Shown here in pieces: positions 1,961-39,222 of a DNA stretch of 42,967 bases. How positions within the stretch are numbered: the first letter of the stretch is position 1; each line of letters opens with the position of its first letter. A program made the position numbers and the translations under genes. Origin of the DNA: Clostridia bacterium (GTDB taxonomy: Bacteria; Bacillota; DSM-521; Neomoorellales; SLTJ01); contig SLTJ01000010.1 of NCBI GenBank assembly GCA_004347685.1, positions 1 through 42,967 on the forward strand. Direction: 5' to 3'. The notes under the pieces are model-generated. The model was not told the DNA's origin. It saw nothing but the letters and a program-made list of their open reading frames with translations, and ran no database searches.

Positions 1961-2400
1961 AGTACCCGAGCTTGGAGGTGGTCCTGGCCCTCCATTCAGA
2001 AACCATTGCCAGGACAGGCGGTGTATCCGGCCTCAGGGACCTCGCCCTGCTGGAATCGGCCCTGGTCCGGCCCCAGGGTACCTTTGACGGGAAGGAACTG
2101 TACCGCACGCTTTTTCTGAAGGCTGCCTGCCTGATGCATAGCTTGATCCTGAATCACGCCTTCCTTGACTGCGACTACCGTCTCTTTCAATACCGGCTGG
2201 CTGGTCTTAGGCGGCCTGGCTGTCCTGGCAGCCTGCATCGTTTTCTTGGCTCTGAGCCGCCGTGGCGGCCCGCCGGGAGGCAGCGGGGGCGGAGGCAGGG
2301 CTACCCGCTACCTCTCCTGGGCCGTGTTGGCCGTCCTGGCGCTCCTGGCCGCGGCCGCAGTGGTGCAGGTCCAGGCCGGACTGGCCATCAACAGCATTAA
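1957..2400 (+). pseudogene. doc: truncated Doc (death-on-curing, Fic-fold) toxin
   Basis: The first ~71 codons (1957-2169) read as a Doc toxin: PSLEVVLALHSETIARTGG, then GLRDLALLESALVRPQGTF and FLKAACLMHSLILNHAFLD. Doc enzymes follow HxFxDGNKR, the loop that binds the nucleotide and transfers the phosphate to EF-Tu. Here the motif is broken immediately after HAFLD and continues CDYRLFQ, without G, N, K or R. From that point the DNA is the start of the zinc-ribbon membrane gene in another frame, so the rest of the 147-codon frame is meaningless sequence. The toxin is almost certainly dead. Confidence 0.75.
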
Positions 2401-2731
2401 AAACGAGGCGGAAGAGCCGCTACGCATCCTGGTGGGCAGGTCTACCTGGACGCCCGCCAGCGCGGAAAGAACGCCGGGCTGGGGTATCCTCGCCCTCCTC
2501 ACCAATGCCGTAGGTGGAGTGGGCTACCTGATCGTGCGGCGGCGCCAGGTAGCCTGTACCACCTGCGGTCTGGAATTAAGCCCAGCCTACCAGGTGTGCC
2601 CGCGCTGCGGCGCCCGGCAGCGCCCCTCCTGCCCATCTTGCGGCCAGGGCACCGAAGAATGGTGGCAGTTCTGCCCTTACTGCGGCCGGGAACTGGGGCC
2701 CCAGGGCTCAGGCCAGGGCCAGGGAAAGTAA
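2165..2731 (+). CDS. membrane protein with C-terminal double zinc ribbon
   Basis: 188 residues. There are two or three hydrophobic segments: residues ~10-30 (WLVLGGLAVLAACIVFLAL), ~48-72, and one before residue 125. They are followed by a cytoplasmic double zinc ribbon with four CxxC knuckles (CTTC, CPRC, CPSC, CPYC) at ~130-178. A Gly/Arg linker separates the first helices. The TTG start at 2165 has no ribosome site and lies exactly where the Doc toxin sequence ends, so the original 5' end of this gene was probably lost in the event that truncated doc. Function is unknown; zinc ribbons of this kind often mediate protein interaction. Confidence 0.65.
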   Translation: MTATTVSFNTGWLVLGGLAVLAACIVFLALSRRGGPPGGSGGGGRATRYLSWAVLAVLALLAAAAVVQVQAGLAINSIKNEAEEPLRILVGRSTWTPASAERTPGWGILALLTNAVGGVGYLIVRRRQVACTTCGLELSPAYQVCPRCGARQRPSCPSCGQGTEEWWQFCPYCGRELGPQGSGQGQGK

Positions 2732-2798
2732 CCGGCATTTCTCTCTACGATGGCCAGTTCCATTTCCGCCCCGGATCACCGATGGAGGAAGATCGCCG

Positions 2799-3782
2799 TC
2801 AGGGCCGTCCGGAGACACGGATATCCACAGTGCTTCCACCATCAATGTGCAGGAGAAAACCTCCCTCTCCCAAGGTGGCCGCGGCGGTCACGCCGGAGGA
2901 GGGAAAGGCCCTCTCTCCGCTAGCGGGGCTAGGAAGCGCATCATGCCCGGGCTCCACCCGCCACGGTAGATCCCCGGTCAAAAACTCCCGACGGGGGACC
3001 CTGGCCCTTACCCGGAGAGGCAGGTCAGAACTCAGGGTGGCCTTGACCTGTCCCGCGTTCTGCACCGTCCAGTCGGCTGCCAGGTGATCCAGCACCAGAT
3101 TGACCGTCCCGGCCGTGGGGCCGGACTTAAACTCCAGGCGCATACCGGCCGGGACCAGCAAAGTCCACTGCTGCTCCGGGTGACCCGGACTGAAATCCCG
3201 GGGGACAGGGACATCACTCAGGGTAAGAAAGAGGGTATCCCCGGCCCGGCGGGTAGAGGCTGCCGCCAGGCTGGCCAGGCTGCGGGCCTCTTGCTCTGAA
3301 ACCGCCCGGATATGGGCTTGCCCGAAAAGGAGAACTTCCGGGCCTGTGGAAGAGCGGATTTCCACCCGGTCGCCGGCACCCTGCACCACTATCCCGGTCA
3401 CGCCTTCACCCGGCGGAATGCTTAATTCCGGCAAGGCCACCGTGTACTCGGCGGCGCTAAAACTGCGTTCCAAGGCCGGCAACACCCCGCTGGCGGCCAG
3501 GCCAGCCAGCCCCAGGGTGAACATGACTACGGCGATCACCGCGATAATGGCCAACCAGTCGTATTTAAGCCGGGGCTTCTCATCCCGGACAAAATACCCG
3601 GCCAGCAGGATTTCTCCCCCTAGAAGGATCGGGGTCACCGGCCACCACCGGTGAACCAACTCCAGGACCCTCCCCGGGCCGTCCTGAGCAACCAGCAGGG
3701 CTACCCCCAGGAGCACCAGTACCAGGCCCATGGAAAAGGAGCCTACGCGCCACTGCCGGAACGATCTTCCTTCGGCTGGCAT
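2799..3782 (-). CDS. LiaF/DUF4097-type envelope membrane protein
   Basis: 327 residues from the ATG at 3782, which has GGAGGG 6 nt upstream; the frame is open further but without a ribosome site. The N-terminal third has helical membrane segments (SFSMGLVLVLLGVALLVAQD, a second near WWPVTPILLGGEILLAGYF, a third at LAIIAVIAVVMFTLGLAGLA), as in the LiaI/LiaF-like DUF5668 region. The remaining ~200 residues are beta-rich with repeated strand patterns, as in the DUF4097 putative adhesin domain. Such proteins sit in the membrane and often take part in cell-envelope stress sensing. No LiaRS genes are adjacent. It converges on the zinc-ribbon gene. Confidence 0.7.
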   Translation of the reverse strand: MPAEGRSFRQWRVGSFSMGLVLVLLGVALLVAQDGPGRVLELVHRWWPVTPILLGGEILLAGYFVRDEKPRLKYDWLAIIAVIAVVMFTLGLAGLAASGVLPALERSFSAAEYTVALPELSIPPGEGVTGIVVQGAGDRVEIRSSTGPEVLLFGQAHIRAVSEQEARSLASLAAASTRRAGDTLFLTLSDVPVPRDFSPGHPEQQWTLLVPAGMRLEFKSGPTAGTVNLVLDHLAADWTVQNAGQVKATLSSDLPLRVRARVPRREFLTGDLPWRVEPGHDALPSPASGERAFPSSGVTAAATLGEGGFLLHIDGGSTVDIRVSGRP

Positions 3783-3807
3783 TCTTTTCCCTCCACGCCA
3801 AAGGGGG

Positions 3808-4077
3808 ATGGCCGAGGCCCAGGCTGGGGGAGTATCGGTGGCCGAGGTGGTAAGAAGGATCATTGACGAGCGCATCCGGGGCGACTCCGCCCGCCTGGGA
3901 GTTCTCGTGGTGGAGGACGCCGTGCGGCGGGTCATGGAGCCGCATGTGGACCGGCTGGCGGGGATGCTGGCCCACGCCGGCGTAGCCGCCGGCGCTGCGG
4001 CATGGCTGGCCAGGGCGCTGGTGAATCTCCTCACCCAGGTGGATCCCGACGAGCAAGACGATATATTTAACGTATAG
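3808..4077 (+). CDS. small helical hypothetical protein
   Basis: 89 residues from the ATG at 3808, preceded by AAGGGGG. It is rich in Val, Ala and Arg, with two charged helices (SVAEVVRRIIDERIRGD and VVEDAVRRVMEPHVDRLAGM), an Ala-rich helix (GVAAGAAAWLARALVNLL) and an acidic tail ending DEQDDIFNV. Codon third positions are strongly G/C on this strand, which supports real coding. It is divergent from the LiaF-like gene with only 25 nt between starts. A weak terminator follows. Family not recognised. Confidence 0.5.
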   Translation: MAEAQAGGVSVAEVVRRIIDERIRGDSARLGVLVVEDAVRRVMEPHVDRLAGMLAHAGVAAGAAAWLARALVNLLTQVDPDEQDDIFNV

Positions 4078-4091
4078 GCGGCAAGGGAGAG

Positions 4092-4112
4092 GGGAATTCT
4101 TCCCTTCTTTTT
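4092..4112 (+). terminator. weak rho-independent terminator
   Basis: A GGGAA / TTCCC stem (4092-4096 / 4100-4104) with a 3-nt loop is followed by TTCTTTTTCT. The stem is short, so it is a weak candidate ending the small gene at 3808-4077. Confidence 0.4.
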
Positions 4113-4298
4113 CTCCCAGTCCAGCTCTAGGAAAAAGTTTGCTGCAGCAAAATCACCTTTTGCTTCGTCTATACTGGCGAGGGTAAATCAAGGTTCGACC
4201 TCCGGGGGGAAGCCCAATTGGATGACGTGGAACAGATTATCAGACAAGGCAAGCCCGCTGGCCGGGTGAAAAACAAATTAGTGGACACGTGGTTTTCC
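4113..4298 (+). other. intergenic stretch with an open frame lacking a start
   Basis: Between the small gene ending 4077 and the padR promoter there is no annotated gene. A plus-strand frame is open for about 60 codons to the TAG at 4335 and includes the plausible segment FDLRGEAQLDDVEQIIRQGK. It has no start codon with a ribosome site and runs through the padR promoter. It may be the tail of a lost gene or chance. Confidence 0.25.
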
Positions 4299-4347
4299 TT
4301 GACAAGGGGAACACCTTTACGCTATGCTAATACATAGATAATCTATG
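4299..4347 (+). promoter_or_regulatory. padR promoter with overlapping palindromic operator
   Basis: TTGACA (4299-4304), an 18-nt spacer and TATGCT (4323-4328) form a sigma-A-type promoter. A perfect inverted repeat CATAGAT-A-ATCTATG (4333-4347) covers the expected transcription start, and its arms extend with one mismatch to ATACATAGAT / ATCTATGCAT. PadR regulators usually bind dyads with ATGTAT-like half-sites over their own promoter, so this is the likely autorepression operator (inference). Confidence 0.65.
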
Positions 4348-4382
4348 CATTCATTGCAAAGGTAAAAGGGGGCGGTTTTATC

Positions 4383-35213: not shown

Positions 35214-35706
35214 AGGGGCGGGGAGTGGAAGGTGACCAGGCTGGACTGGGAAGACTGAAGCCACCGGCCGTTGGCAAACTCAACCCTTCGGGGAAGGAGA
35301 AATTCGGCCGGGTAGCTATGACGATTTATGATTTATATCTCAGGAAGCCGGTTTTCCGACCGAAAGGGGTAGGCAAAGTGAAAATCAAGCGCAAGCCGCT
35401 ACCTGGGCGGACGCCTCCTATGAGTTATGCGTCATAGGACCGGACAGTCGAGCCAGTTAATTGCTCCGAGGACCGTTAACGGGCTCCTTGACCTTGGCCG
35501 AGAGCACACTCCTATTTCGGGTAGGGGGGCACCTTGATCTACCTGGACCAGGGGTGGGCCGGGGACGATACGCCTATCCATAGCTTATGAGGTACGCCAG
35601 CTTTTTCCCGGCCCTGGTACGGTCGTTTGAGGATTTGCGGGACGTACTGGAGGTAGCCCGGCATGTCTGGGCGGATGGTAAAAGATTAATAGTTTTATAT
35701 CCAGTT
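35214..35706 (+). other. gene-poor interval before the riboswitch
   Basis: About 490 nt without a convincing gene. Short open frames exist (70 codons from 35225; 42 codons from ATG 35587 reading RYASFFPALVRSFEDLRDVL) but neither has a ribosome site or recognisable family. They may be relics. No terminator with a U-tract was found after the 33903 gene. Confidence 0.4.
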
Positions 35707-35707
35707 A

Positions 35708-35716
35708 TGGTATAAT
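35708..35716 (+). promoter_or_regulatory. extended -10 promoter of the riboswitch transcript
   Basis: TGGTATAAT, an extended -10 with perfect TATAAT at 35711-35716. No good -35 is present (TTAATA at 35686 is too far away), as expected for an extended -10 promoter. Transcription would start about 15 nt before the aptamer. Confidence 0.65.
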
Positions 35717-35734
35717 ATGGTTAAAAATTTCATA

Positions 35735-35832
35735 CAAGCGCTAAGGGCAAACTCACCGAAAGGTGAGGACGCAAAGCCATAGGGTCTAAGGTGCTGGTGT
35801 GATGGCACTAAGACAGCCTGGCCGCCGCTGTA
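35735..35832 (+). ncRNA. cyclic di-GMP-I (GEMM) riboswitch aptamer
   Basis: The sequence carries the GEMM-I core: a CTCACC-GAAA-GGTGAG hairpin (35752-35767) with a GAAA tetraloop, then GACGCAAAGCCATAGGG, TCTAAGG, and after a second stem ACTAAGACAGCCTGGCCGCC. These match the conserved 'GACGCAAAGC.A.GGG.CTAA' and 'A.GGCAGCC.GG' elements around the c-di-GMP pocket. A strong terminator follows 12 nt later, so ligand binding probably controls read-through into the genes from 35990. Whether c-di-GMP turns expression on or off cannot be told without folding. Confidence 0.88.
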
Positions 35833-35842
35833 GGACGGTCTG

Positions 35843-35871
35843 ACCTGCCCTTTCTCGTGGCAGGTTTTTTT
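35843..35871 (+). terminator. riboswitch expression-platform terminator
   Basis: Perfect stem ACCTGCC / GGCAGGT (35843-35849 / 35859-35865) with a 9-nt loop and an uninterrupted T-run to 35871. It is placed directly after the c-di-GMP aptamer. Confidence 0.9.
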
Positions 35872-35989
35872 GTCTCCAGAAGGGGGGGGGAAATCTGTCT
35901 TACCAATCGCCAGGAATGGGGTTGGTTGGCGATAAAACCTCGGTACTTCGTCGGCGGCTTCTCCAAAAGGAAAAGGAGGCCAGTGAGCC

Positions 35990-36235
35990 ATGCCGCGGAA
36001 GCCAAAACTGCGGGAACTGATCGTTCAGGTTAAAAACGGCGAGGAGGACGCTGTCCTTGAAGTGGTGCACCGGTTCATTCCACTGGTCAAGAAGTATAGC
36101 CGCCGCATGGGCTATGATGAAGCCTGTCCCGATCTGGTTGTCTGGATTGTGAAGGCGGTCCACAGGTATGAACCGCGTACCACCTGGGGCCGGGACGAAC
36201 TCCAGCAATACTTCGTGAGCAAACGACATCACTAA
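35990..36235 (+). CDS. RsoA-like sigma region-2 subunit
   Basis: 81 residues. ELIVQVKNGEEDAVLEVVHR followed by FIPLVKKYSRRMGYDEA is the helix pattern of RsoA/YvrHa-type proteins (helix-turn-helix HTH_16), which carry only sigma-70 region 2 (core RNA polymerase and -10 binding). In Bacillus RsoA (about 79 residues) works with SigO, which supplies region 4, and the length match here is close. The ATG at 35990 follows AAAAGGAGG with slightly long (10-nt) spacing. It is the first gene after the c-di-GMP riboswitch terminator, and a region-4 gene follows, so the pair probably makes a bipartite sigma factor. Confidence 0.75.
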   Translation: MPRKPKLRELIVQVKNGEEDAVLEVVHRFIPLVKKYSRRMGYDEACPDLVVWIVKAVHRYEPRTTWGRDELQQYFVSKRHH

Positions 36236-36240
36236 AAAAA

Positions 36241-36290
36241 TTTTTTCGGTAGGGGGTTGTAAAATGGCCCCCTACTTTCTCTTTAGAGAG
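36241..36290 (+). repeat. two-hairpin element, copy A
   Basis: Contains GGGGGTTGT (36252-36260), 14 nt, then CTTTCTCTTT (36275-36284). A perfect stem GTAGGGGG / CCCCCTAC spans it, followed by a small CTC-TTTA-GAG hairpin. The same layout recurs at 36931-36989 (copy B). It lies between the two sigma-subunit genes. Confidence 0.7.
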
Positions 36291-36381
36291 TAGAGGGCAA
36301 AAATTGAGGACCGGAAGGAGGTGAAAGGGATGGATCCTTACACATGACGACGGTGATGAATTTGACCTGGAAGAGGCCAGG

Positions 36382-36819
36382 GTGGTGGCCTGGTTCGTGA
36401 CCGGGCTGCGCCGCGAAGCGATCCGGTTGACCAGGAAGCACAGGCGGATGAAAGAACACGAGTTGCTCATCCTGAACGAACAACTGAAAGGCGATACGGG
36501 GGGTGAGGCCCTGGCCACAATGCTCAATACCGTTAACCCACCAGCGGATCTCCTTACCGAGGTAGAAAACAGGCTAGTCCTCCAGGAAGCCCTCGCGTTG
36601 CTCACGCCGCTGCAGCAGAGGGTGGTCGTGGCAACGATCCTGGAGGGGGTAACGGAACAGGAATTAGCCGGGGAAATGGGGGTGACCAAGCAGGCGGTAA
36701 ACAGGATCAAGGAACGGGCGCTGGACAAGTTACGCAAATATTTTGTCCTGGACAAGCCCTCCCGGCAAGTAGAGCCTGGTCCAGGACGGACAACCACGAC
36801 CGCCCCGATCCGCAGGTAG
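36382..36819 (+). CDS. SigO-like sigma region-4 protein (start needs +1 frameshift)
   Basis: 145 residues from GTG 36382, the first standard start in this frame. Residues ~65-125 are a sigma-70 region 4 (LVLQEALALLTPLQQRVVVA, then EGVTEQELAGEMGVTKQAVN and RIKERALDKLRKYF) that would contact a -35 element. The preceding helix carries LTRKHRRMKEHELLILNE. The best ribosome site (AAGGAGGTG) precedes an ATG at 36330 in another frame, which stops after five codons at TGA 36345. Skipping one base at that TGA joins it to this frame (DDGDEFDLEEARVVAWFV, in frame and open). Either a +1 shift occurs as in prfB, or the gene carries a one-base insertion. Confidence 0.72.
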   Translation: MVAWFVTGLRREAIRLTRKHRRMKEHELLILNEQLKGDTGGEALATMLNTVNPPADLLTEVENRLVLQEALALLTPLQQRVVVATILEGVTEQELAGEMGVTKQAVNRIKERALDKLRKYFVLDKPSRQVEPGPGRTTTTAPIRR

Positions 36820-36930: not shown

Positions 36931-36989
36931 AAAATTTTTCTCTGAGGGGGTTGTCAAAATCCTCACTGCTTTCTCTTTGTAGGACAAAG
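36931..36989 (+). repeat. two-hairpin element, copy B
   Basis: AAAATTTTTC, then GGGGGTTGT (36946-36954), again exactly 14 nt, then CTTTCTCTTT (36969-36978). The first stem is TGAGG / CCTCA and the second CTTTGT / ACAAAG (36975-36980 / 36984-36989). The arms differ from copy A but still pair, suggesting an RNA structure rather than a pure DNA repeat. Confidence 0.65.
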
Positions 36990-37039
36990 GGCCAAGTAGT
37001 GGCTCTCCCAGGATGGGTGTAGAAAGTGTTCTTTGACAA

Positions 37040-37295
37040 GTTAGCGCTGGCACCGCCCGGGGTGCAAGGCATTGCGGTGGCGGCGTGATTTGGTACCCGT
37101 GCTCACGCCGGTGTACCTGACCATATCGGGCCAAAATCGGCCGGGTAGGGTTCGGGGAACCGCCCTCGTCTCGGAGAGGGTAATGGCGTGGAGTGAGCCC
37201 TGTCGGCTGCGCTAGAAAGCGCGGTGGGAACCACAGGCGGGGTAGGCGCGCGCCAGCAGCGAGGCGCAAGCGGGGGCCTGGGTTTATGCCCATGA
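37040..37295 (+). ncRNA. candidate structured RNA upstream of the recombinase
   Basis: The 554-nt gap before the recombinase operon contains a GC-rich stretch with many local stems: CACCGC / GCGGTG (37051-37056 / 37074-37079), GGTAC..CGTG-CT-CACG..GTACC, GGTTC-GGG-GAACC, CCCTC / GAGGG, and GCGCT-AGAA-AGCGC. A long-range pair GCTGGC / GCCAGC (37046-37051 / 37252-37257) could close them. No frame is convincingly coding. It does not look like RNase P, tmRNA, SRP RNA or a group II intron. Strand is taken from the downstream genes. Confidence 0.5.
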
Positions 37296-37373: not shown

Positions 37374-37547
37374 TTGGCGGAACAGCGGCATCGGCAGTCG
37401 GTTGCCTCAAAAAAGGATTCGAAAAAACCCATTTTTATGTTAGTGCCCAGCAGTGACAAGCAAGCTGCCGAGGCGGCTTTTCGCAAGGCGATGAAAATAG
37501 TTATGGAAAATGTTACAGCAAAGCAGGAAAATGACGGTAAGTTATAG
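37374..37547 (+). CDS. small basic protein upstream of the recombinase
   Basis: 57 residues from TTG 37374 with GGGGGTGAT upstream. The N-terminus is basic and polar (AEQRHRQSVASKKDSKKPIF) and the rest is helical (SSDKQAAEAAFRKAMKIVME). The stop is 34 nt before the recombinase start. It could be an accessory or directionality factor for the recombinase, since such factors are small, basic and adjacent, but there is no recognised motif. Composition is more AT-rich than the flanking genes, like the recombinase itself. Confidence 0.6.
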   Translation: MAEQRHRQSVASKKDSKKPIFMLVPSSDKQAAEAAFRKAMKIVMENVTAKQENDGKL

Positions 37548-37581: not shown

Positions 37582-39222
37582 ATGAAGGCACTAAAGGCAT
37601 TAGTCTATACCAGAGTGAGTACCAAGGAACAGGCCGAGGGATTTTCCCTGGAAACCCAGCGTGAGGCCTGCGAGAAGAAAGCCAAAGAACTCGGAGCCGT
37701 CGATATCGTCTTTCTTGAGGATACTTATACCGGGATTGAGTTGGACAGGCCGGCCATGAACCTGCTCCGTGATTACGTGCGCGAACGCCAGGTTGACATG
37801 ATCGTTGTCTATGACCCGGACCGTTTCAGCAGGGATCTGAATGACCTCTTGATAGTAACGAAAGAGATTGACAGGGCGGGAATAACCCTGCATTTTGTTA
37901 ACTTCGACTGGCAGAATACTCCCCAGGGGATGTTGTTTCTTCAATTGCGGGGTGCCATCGCCCAGTTTGAACATGCTCAGATTAGGGAACGCACTACCCG
38001 GGGAAAACGCAAGAAAGCCGAGAAGGGGATGATCCGGACCTACGCCAGACCCTATGGCTATAATTTTAACAAGGAAACTGACTGCCTTGAGATTAACGAG
38101 GAAGAGGCCAAGATTGTTAGGTTAATTTTTGAGTGGTATATCCGGGATGAGAACCCTCTTTCGCCCTATGAGATTGCCAAGCGGTTGGCTGACATGGGGG
38201 TGCCTGGCCCCAAGGGTCCTAACTGGATCTTTTCTTCCATTCACCGGATGCTGCGAAACGAAACATACGCGGGACGGTTGGTACGAGATGACGAGCAACC
38301 GGACTGGCAACCTATTCTTGTGCCACCCATAATAGATCGAGCTACCTTTGAAAAGGCCCAGGCCAGGTTGAAGGAAAGGGCACGATATAATCCAAAAGCC
38401 ACAAAGGGTGAGTTTCTCCTGCAGCGCCTGGTTTTTTGCGGATTATGTGGAAAGGCGATGACAGTAAAAACGAGAACCCAAAAGGGGCGGGCTTGGAGTT
38501 ACTATACCTGTAATGGAAGGTACCAGCGGGACTTTGGGCCTGCTGTTCCCACCTGCTGCACGTTGCCACCTTACAGGACGACCGCGCTTGACCAGGAAGT
38601 CTGGAGCAGGATTTCGGAGTTGTTGAAGGACCCGGAAAAGTATATGGACTACCTGATGAATTCAGCCAAGGACGATGGTGCCCGCCAGCGATTAGAGCAG
38701 GCGAGAACCCGTCTGGCCAGAGTGGAACAAGCGCGGGACAAGGTTAACCACGCCTGGTTTTCCGGCTATCTGGAATCTGAAGAGGAGTTCCGCAAATACT
38801 TGGCTGAGTACCGTGCCAAGGTCCAGGAGATTAAGCAGGAAATCGAGCACCTGGAGGCCGTAATCAAGGATCAAGAAGCGGCGCAGGAAGGCATAGAAGT
38901 TATCCGGTCGTATGCCGCCAAGTTAGCGGGCAGCGTTGATGATTTACCATTCAAGGCAAAGCAAGAGTTGGTTCGCACCTTGGTAGAGAGAGTGGTGGTG
39001 AGGCCCGACCTGATTGAGATCAGGGGGCATTTTGTGATGAGCGAACGCGTTGCACCTGGTGAAGTTGCTAGTGCATTAGATAGTCCGCATCGAGAAACGG
39101 GCCATCCAGAAACTCCTCAAGGAAATGTCCGCCCAAGGTTAGTCTTGGATACCTCCCCTTTGTACCTTATCCCTGCAGTTTTTTCTTTTTTTAGAAGGAT
39201 TTCTGGCTCCGAGGGCGAATGA
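37582..39222 (+). CDS. large serine recombinase
   Basis: 546 residues. The ATG at 37582 follows AAGGAGGG. The catalytic domain (1-140) has the nucleophile Ser13 in ALVYTRVSTKEQAEG, then SLETQREACEKKAKELG, the DRFSRDLNDL motif and an Arg cluster (ERTTRGKRKKAEKG). The 'Recombinase' domain spans ~155-265, a zinc ribbon ~282-345 (FCGLCGKAM, YYTCNG, PTCCTL) and a long coiled coil ~365-440 (EQARTRLARVEQARDKVNH). It catalyses site-specific integration, excision or inversion by cutting attP-like sites. The gene and its upstream neighbour use more AT-rich codons than the surroundings, which fits acquisition. No att pair was proved. Confidence 0.95.
   Translation: MKALKALVYTRVSTKEQAEGFSLETQREACEKKAKELGAVDIVFLEDTYTGIELDRPAMNLLRDYVRERQVDMIVVYDPDRFSRDLNDLLIVTKEIDRAGITLHFVNFDWQNTPQGMLFLQLRGAIAQFEHAQIRERTTRGKRKKAEKGMIRTYARPYGYNFNKETDCLEINEEEAKIVRLIFEWYIRDENPLSPYEIAKRLADMGVPGPKGPNWIFSSIHRMLRNETYAGRLVRDDEQPDWQPILVPPIIDRATFEKAQARLKERARYNPKATKGEFLLQRLVFCGLCGKAMTVKTRTQKGRAWSYYTCNGRYQRDFGPAVPTCCTLPPYRTTALDQEVWSRISELLKDPEKYMDYLMNSAKDDGARQRLEQARTRLARVEQARDKVNHAWFSGYLESEEEFRKYLAEYRAKVQEIKQEIEHLEAVIKDQEAAQEGIEVIRSYAAKLAGSVDDLPFKAKQELVRTLVERVVVRPDLIEIRGHFVMSERVAPGEVASALDSPHRETGHPETPQGNVRPRLVLDTSPLYLIPAVFSFFRRISGSEGE

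Follow-up and report, generated by a model that had tools for sequence, protein, structure and literature searches.

A c-di-GMP-I riboswitch upstream of a putative split ECF-like sigma factor whose region-4 half probably requires a programmed +1 frameshift

In DNA of a Clostridia bacterium, a c-di-GMP-I riboswitch with an intrinsic terminator lies upstream of two small genes that together look like one ECF-like sigma factor, and the second of these genes is probably expressed through a programmed +1 frameshift. The best explanation of the observations as a whole, to which we give a probability of roughly 0.7, is a riboswitch-gated, frameshifted split ECF-like sigma factor that reads a repeated promoter-like motif, here called M. 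The window (the whole stretch of DNA that was analysed, 42,967 nucleotides) is included in a host assembly of 3.12 Mb in 54 contigs, in which we found nine GGDEF matches and nine c-di-GMP-I aptamers.

In the circuit that we propose, a housekeeping extended −10 promoter would produce a transcript headed by the riboswitch and its terminator. At low c-di-GMP, transcription would probably continue (an OFF switch) and the region-2-type subunit would be made, which should bind the RNA polymerase core. Its partner, carrying the promoter-melting segment and region 4, would be translated from an ATG followed after five codons by a TGA, so that a +1 frameshift at ACN_TRA_C would be required in vivo; the peptide expected across the shift is, for example, MDPYTDDGDEFDLEEAR. 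Both halves would then assemble into a split ECF-like sigma factor reading motif M (GGGGTTRTNAAAA, then TTCTCTTTATATRGTA 24–25 nt on). The copy of M located 5′ of the region-4 gene itself would create positive feedback, and the other M-driven outputs would be a holin-like gene, wall hydrolases or tail proteins in relatives, and a structured RNA plus a serine recombinase in the window. The relevant features of the window are the following.

35706..35716, +, extended −10 promoter-like sequence TATGGTATAAT (sigma-A type) 5′ of the riboswitch, read from the sequence
35736..35829, +, c-di-GMP-I riboswitch aptamer (RF01051)
35842..35871, +, intrinsic terminator (GACCTGCC...GGCAGGTTTTTTT), the likely expression platform (sequence and folding)
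35990..36235, +, putative region-2-type sigma subunit (HTH_16), with Shine-Dalgarno AAGGAGG at 35973 (Pfam, predicted fold, synteny)
36248..36292, +, motif M, copy 1: box GGGGTTGTAAAAT, spacer, box TTCTCTTTAGAGAGTA; a repeat and candidate split-sigma promoter
36315..36323, +, Shine-Dalgarno AAGGAGGTG for ATG 36330 (sequence)
36330..36347, +, short zero-frame ORF M-D-P-Y-T-stop (ATG GAT CCT TAC ACA TGA), with equivalents in relatives
36342..36348, +, proposed +1 frameshift site ACA_TGA_C (consensus ACN_TRA_C in relatives; codon-position bias)
36346..36819, +, putative sigma subunit with region 2.3/2.4-like segment and region 4, the body after the +1 shift (Sigma70_r4, TIGR02937, fold, alignment of 25 sequences)
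36942..36986, +, motif M, copy 2 (repeat), 5′ of the structured RNA and recombinase
37028..37274, +, structured RNA not previously described, conserved 5′ of serine recombinases (compensatory changes)
37374..37547, +, small ORF before the recombinase, without a family match in profile searches
37582..39222, +, large serine recombinase (Pfam Resolvase/Recombinase/Zn_ribbon_recom; PHROG integrase, 385 bits)

A preliminary description of this region had placed a c-di-GMP-I aptamer and a terminator before the sigma genes, and both were recovered. The aptamer matches RF01051 over its full length (1–87 of 87) with 75.8 bits and E 3e-13, the gathering score being 35, and the adjoining terminator consists of a hairpin (35842–35866) followed by T7 (−13.2 kcal/mol). 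The promoter-like sequence upstream has a poor −35 and was not flagged by a consensus scan; TATAAT-like boxes are also located 5′ of the aptamer in six relatives (L022, L029, L031, L032, L037 and L038). The host has further riboswitches of the c-di-GMP-I or I-GGC type at L017:5158-5245(-), L018:4997-5082 and L019:5381-5464(-), with three more on contig C2; judged by eye, those of L017 and L019 lie 5′ of two genes, one HD-domain-like and one FapA-like.

A search with the region-4 protein yielded 25 loci in GTDB species genomes, and whole-genome search added more; in all, about 32 loci were compared, from Pelotomaculum, Desulfofundulus, Thermosediminibacter and others. The same gene order recurs across many genera: 16 of the ~32 distinct loci (the window, C49, L021/L033, L022, L023, L029–L032, L034, L036–L038, L042, L044 and L045) have an upstream, same-strand c-di-GMP-I or c-di-GMP-I-GGC aptamer, which indicates that the link between the riboswitch and the split sigma factor is not a matter of chance. 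Most aptamer-bearing relatives have a terminator hairpin at the equivalent place, and the aptamers of C49 and C21 score best against the variant family RF03167.

The sigma homology of the two proteins, previously called from motifs, was confirmed for each half. ORF 35990–36235, described earlier as a region-2-only protein, scores 26.8 bits against HTH_16 (Pfam cut-off 22), a family that also has matches in the B. subtilis control genome, and its weak sigma matches in profile searches span sigma N-terminal positions 6–76. All ten of the best PDB matches to its AlphaFold2 model (pLDDT 86) are to sigma region 2, among them that of sigma-E and of SigC, with probabilities of up to 0.99, yet weak E-values of 0.1–2. 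In approximately 25 loci this gene lies directly 5′ of the region-4 gene. The claimed region-4 protein (ORF 36382–36819) matches Sigma70_r4 with 39.5 bits (cut-off 24.1) and TIGR02937 (sigma70-ECF) with 62 bits, at profile positions 44–164 of 165, and the PDB matches listed for its AlphaFold2 model are sigma factors throughout. Judging from the profile matches and predicted folds of both proteins, the pair looks like a single ECF-like sigma factor cut inside region 2. In our reading of the alignment, the promoter-melting segment AWFxTGLRxEAIRL would be carried by the second (region-4) protein.

The start of the region-4 gene, previously set at 36382, had to be moved. The conserved coding region begins upstream of this position, at approximately 36346, and the only good ribosome-binding site of the gene serves ATG 36330, which lies in a different frame from the sigma body and thus implies a +1 shift. 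The same arrangement, a zero-frame ORF of 4–6 codons followed by the conserved sigma body in the +1 frame, was found in 19 of 30 loci. The zero-frame stop in these 19, at codon 5–7, is TGA in 14 and TAA in 5 (never TAG); it is followed by C in 12 loci and preceded by a Thr codon (ACN) in 14. Frameshifting is not universal: five of the 30 loci are in frame, five show the other phase or are degenerate or ambiguous, and one has no clear start. Between the shift site and the conserved Trp lie 33 nt in which related loci differ by 149 substitutions at third, 91 at first and 47 at second codon positions (counted over overlapping locus pairs, so that the events are not independent), a pattern indicating that this stretch is coding in the sigma frame. 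Conservation of direction and site, and coding constraint extending up to the alternative starts, both features of programmed +1 shifting, were thus found together, and the region-4 half probably needs such a frameshift.

An M-type repeat, promoter- or terminator-like in appearance and overlooked in the preliminary description, is present between the two sigma genes (36253) and again 3′ of the second (36947). The consensus is based on 43 sites, in which TTCTCTTTATATRGTA starts mostly 24–25 nt beyond GGGGTTRTNAAAA. The motif is conserved in nearly all loci, where it lies 5′ of the region-4 gene and also 5′ of holin-like, tail, hydrolase or recombinase operons. Of 398 Bacillota genomes, three contain an exact form of it, all of them carriers of the split sigma factor, and the controls gave zero hits. 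These observations suggest that M is a promoter read by the split sigma factor, which, given its position 5′ of the region-4 gene, would amount to autoregulation. The dedicated promoter set envisaged in the preliminary description has thereby gained a candidate motif, restricted among the sampled Bacillota to carriers of the split sigma factor, while the action of the sigma factor on it is what we infer. A hairpin (36248–36276) overlaps M copy 1, and the GGGG/CCCC hairpin of the motif folds at −11.2 kcal/mol versus −7.7 with shuffled spacers; part of the conservation of M may therefore reflect RNA structure or termination.

The presence of these elements limits the extent to which the riboswitch gates the sigma factor. 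Direct gating, as originally proposed for the pair, would apply to the region-2 half only (and to the holin-like gene where there is one). Because the region-4 half has its own promoter-like motif and a strong hairpin 5′ of the gene, c-di-GMP probably controls this half indirectly, or by read-through combined with autoregulation; M may double as a terminator of the upstream gene, which would make this control indirect.

The genes surrounding the sigma pair differ between the window and its relatives. Many relatives share a 5′ part composed of the riboswitch, a gene for a small membrane protein with weak holin similarity, the HTH_16 gene, M and the region-4 gene, and a 3′ part composed of a signal-less wall-hydrolase-like gene and then a divergent lipoprotein gene. 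The hydrolase-like genes match Amidase_3, M15 peptidase and, weakly, glucosaminidase or DPBB; the holin-like gene had no holin match in Pfam and a weak one to a PHROG holin (E 0.04–0.07). In L033, a variable signal-less gene (2276-3109) is accompanied by a divergent lipoprotein-like gene (3168-4358), as in L036, L040, L051 and L052, and such pairs are laid out like cargo and immunity genes. L031 (4847-5269) and L032 contain, after the split sigma and behind their own copy of M, a second, different Sigma70_r4_2 protein, an excisionase-like gene and an integrase. A phage origin was considered and rejected, as the region-4 protein has no relatives in IMG/VR viral contigs, INPHARED phages or PLSDB plasmids. 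One relative, L043, is nevertheless placed 5′ of phage-tail genes; there (L043:683-2732), M lies 5′ of phage-tail-sheath genes, which may form a tail or tailocin operon linked to c-di-GMP.

In the window, the sigma pair is followed by M, the structured RNA, the small ORF and the large serine recombinase, with holin and hydrolase genes absent, and this copy may be a reduced derivative. The structured RNA shows compensatory changes in 16 of 51 predicted pairs (7 sequences); an initial fold with four close sequences had given zero compensatory pairs, and comparison with Rfam up to E 5 returned only one chance match, on the opposite strand. Further copies were seen at L030:4596-4842, L064:3872-4100(-), L014:3814-4036(-), L072, L068 and L074, and the RNA precedes large serine recombinases in several genomes. 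The block from 35708 to at least 38731, comprising riboswitch, sigma genes, RNA and recombinase, is 95% identical to L029:3364-6386 of a Dethiobacter MAG, and the left flank of the latter is unrelated to that of the window, which suggests that the block is probably a mobile element. The genome of the window also contains partial copies of the locus on contigs C49 (L013), C21 (L016), C54 (L014) and C15 (L015). The C49 copy has a holin-like gene and an amidase, and its HTH_16 gene is interrupted by an in-frame TAG; a deletion lies between the two sigma halves of the C21 copy; and the C54 and C15 copies comprise M, the structured RNA and a near-identical recombinase.

Several of these observations can be read differently. 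The five-codon ORF could be a leader peptide followed by an internal restart (at GTG 36382 in the window), or the break in frame could be simple decay. In the window and in several relatives the conserved Trp is indeed closely preceded by an in-frame GTG or ATG, and the element is degraded elsewhere in the genome (the TAG of C49, the deletion of C21). We nevertheless regard this as very unlikely, since the sequence leading up to that point (33 nt) evolves like coding sequence in the sigma frame, and in seven of the 19 frameshift loci this stretch contains no ATG, GTG or TTG at all, which argues against an internal restart; moreover, the upstream ED-A-R residues are conserved also in the in-frame loci. 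Decay would make both wrong phases equally common, whereas 19 of the 24 out-of-frame loci are in +1 and 5 in the other phase, with the position of the stop fixed. M could be a hairpin that terminates or attenuates transcription of the upstream cistron, with region 4 expressed by read-through as the second gene of the riboswitch operon. At many sites a T-rich tract does follow a GGGG/CCCC hairpin, the C-rich spacers fold better than shuffled ones, and a terminator scan flags both window copies. As a replacement for the promoter reading this seems unlikely: the boxes are retained although several sites fold weakly and CCC is missing from 13 of the 40 spacers; a terminator needs neither the TTRTNAAAA of the loop nor the TATATRGTA tail after the T tract, yet both are conserved; and M also heads separate operons.

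We consider an OFF switch more likely than an ON switch, because P1 of the aptamer does not overlap the terminator, because the 5′ segment of the aptamer can pair with the 5′ arm of the terminator in the window, L029 and L034, and because c-di-GMP binding to the C. difficile flgB riboswitch leads to termination (PMC8844915). An OFF switch would use the antiterminator pairing AAGGGCA/TGCCCTT. This pairing stands out in the window and its close relatives alone, and a test over 15 loci gave no significance for the group as a whole, so that an ON switch, in which c-di-GMP would promote expression, stays a serious if doubtful option. Conjugative transposons encode pairs of HTH_16 and region-4 proteins of the Tn916 ORF8/ORF7 type. 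By analogy, the pair might be a non-sigma regulator of excision by the adjacent recombinase, with the riboswitch coupling mobility of the element to c-di-GMP. A large serine recombinase follows the pair in the window, L029 and L030, an integrase follows it in L031 and L032, and the L029 copy has its different left flank; most relatives, however, have holin-like and hydrolase-like genes instead of an adjoining recombinase, both predicted folds are sigma folds, and action on the genes of the element would be compatible with sigma activity. This makes a non-sigma role distinctly unlikely in our view.

If the split-sigma reading is correct, it may extend to a fuller design with two RNA-level gates, in which the riboswitch would control the core-binding half and the +1 frameshift the promoter-recognising half, M would serve as the factor's own promoter, and the whole would form a positive-feedback AND gate carried on a mobile cassette; we see even odds for this design in full. 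Its sigma factor gene would depend on programmed frameshifting for expression, a kind of gene for which we found no description. Signalling by a second messenger, ribosomal recoding and a split sigma factor would meet in a circuit that is compact and transferable and has a predicted promoter. When a conserved +1 frameshift lies so near the start codon, it falls into a blind spot, in which genes are shortened or missed by annotation and frameshift surveys. The circuit also offers a possible account of how signal-less wall hydrolases beside holin-like genes are regulated in environmental Clostridia.

The literature searched, which included few subscription papers, contained no matching description of a c-di-GMP riboswitch with a split sigma factor or a holin. 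Riboswitch, split sigma factor and +1 frameshift are each known, and it is their combination that appears new. The flgB riboswitch of C. difficile belongs to class I. Like this c-di-GMP-I (GEMM-I) riboswitch, the window has an aptamer and then an intrinsic terminator, but here they are placed 5′ of a split sigma factor. In SigO-RsoA, sigma domains 2 and 4 reside on two small proteins, both of which are needed (PMC10028694). Judged by description, the window pair shares this division of domains; it differs in its location behind a c-di-GMP-I riboswitch, in the conserved +1 frameshift of the region-4 gene, and in the ties of the loci to holin-like, hydrolase or recombinase genes. Clostridial toxin and bacteriocin loci of the sigma-holin-endolysin type, TcdR/TcdE and UviA/UviB (PMC9527704), resemble the relatives of the window, in which a sigma factor likewise occurs together with a wall hydrolase and a holin-like small membrane protein. 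What sets the present loci apart is that their sigma factor is split and placed under a riboswitch and that the similarity to holins is weak; the window copy lacks both holin and hydrolase.

The best-known bacterial relative of the region-4 frameshift is that of prfB (release factor 2), which has the motif YTT_TRA_C and a direction conserved among orthologues (PMC3711429). In both genes a TRA stop interrupts the reading frame early, frequently with C as the next base, and the rest is encoded in +1. In contrast to prfB, where YTT precedes the stop, this position is mostly occupied by ACN here, and the site lies only 4–6 codons after the start, nearer than the 50 nt within which the GeneTack survey misses prfB frameshifts (PMC3711429). 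A further difference is that the frameshifted gene described here would encode a sigma subunit.
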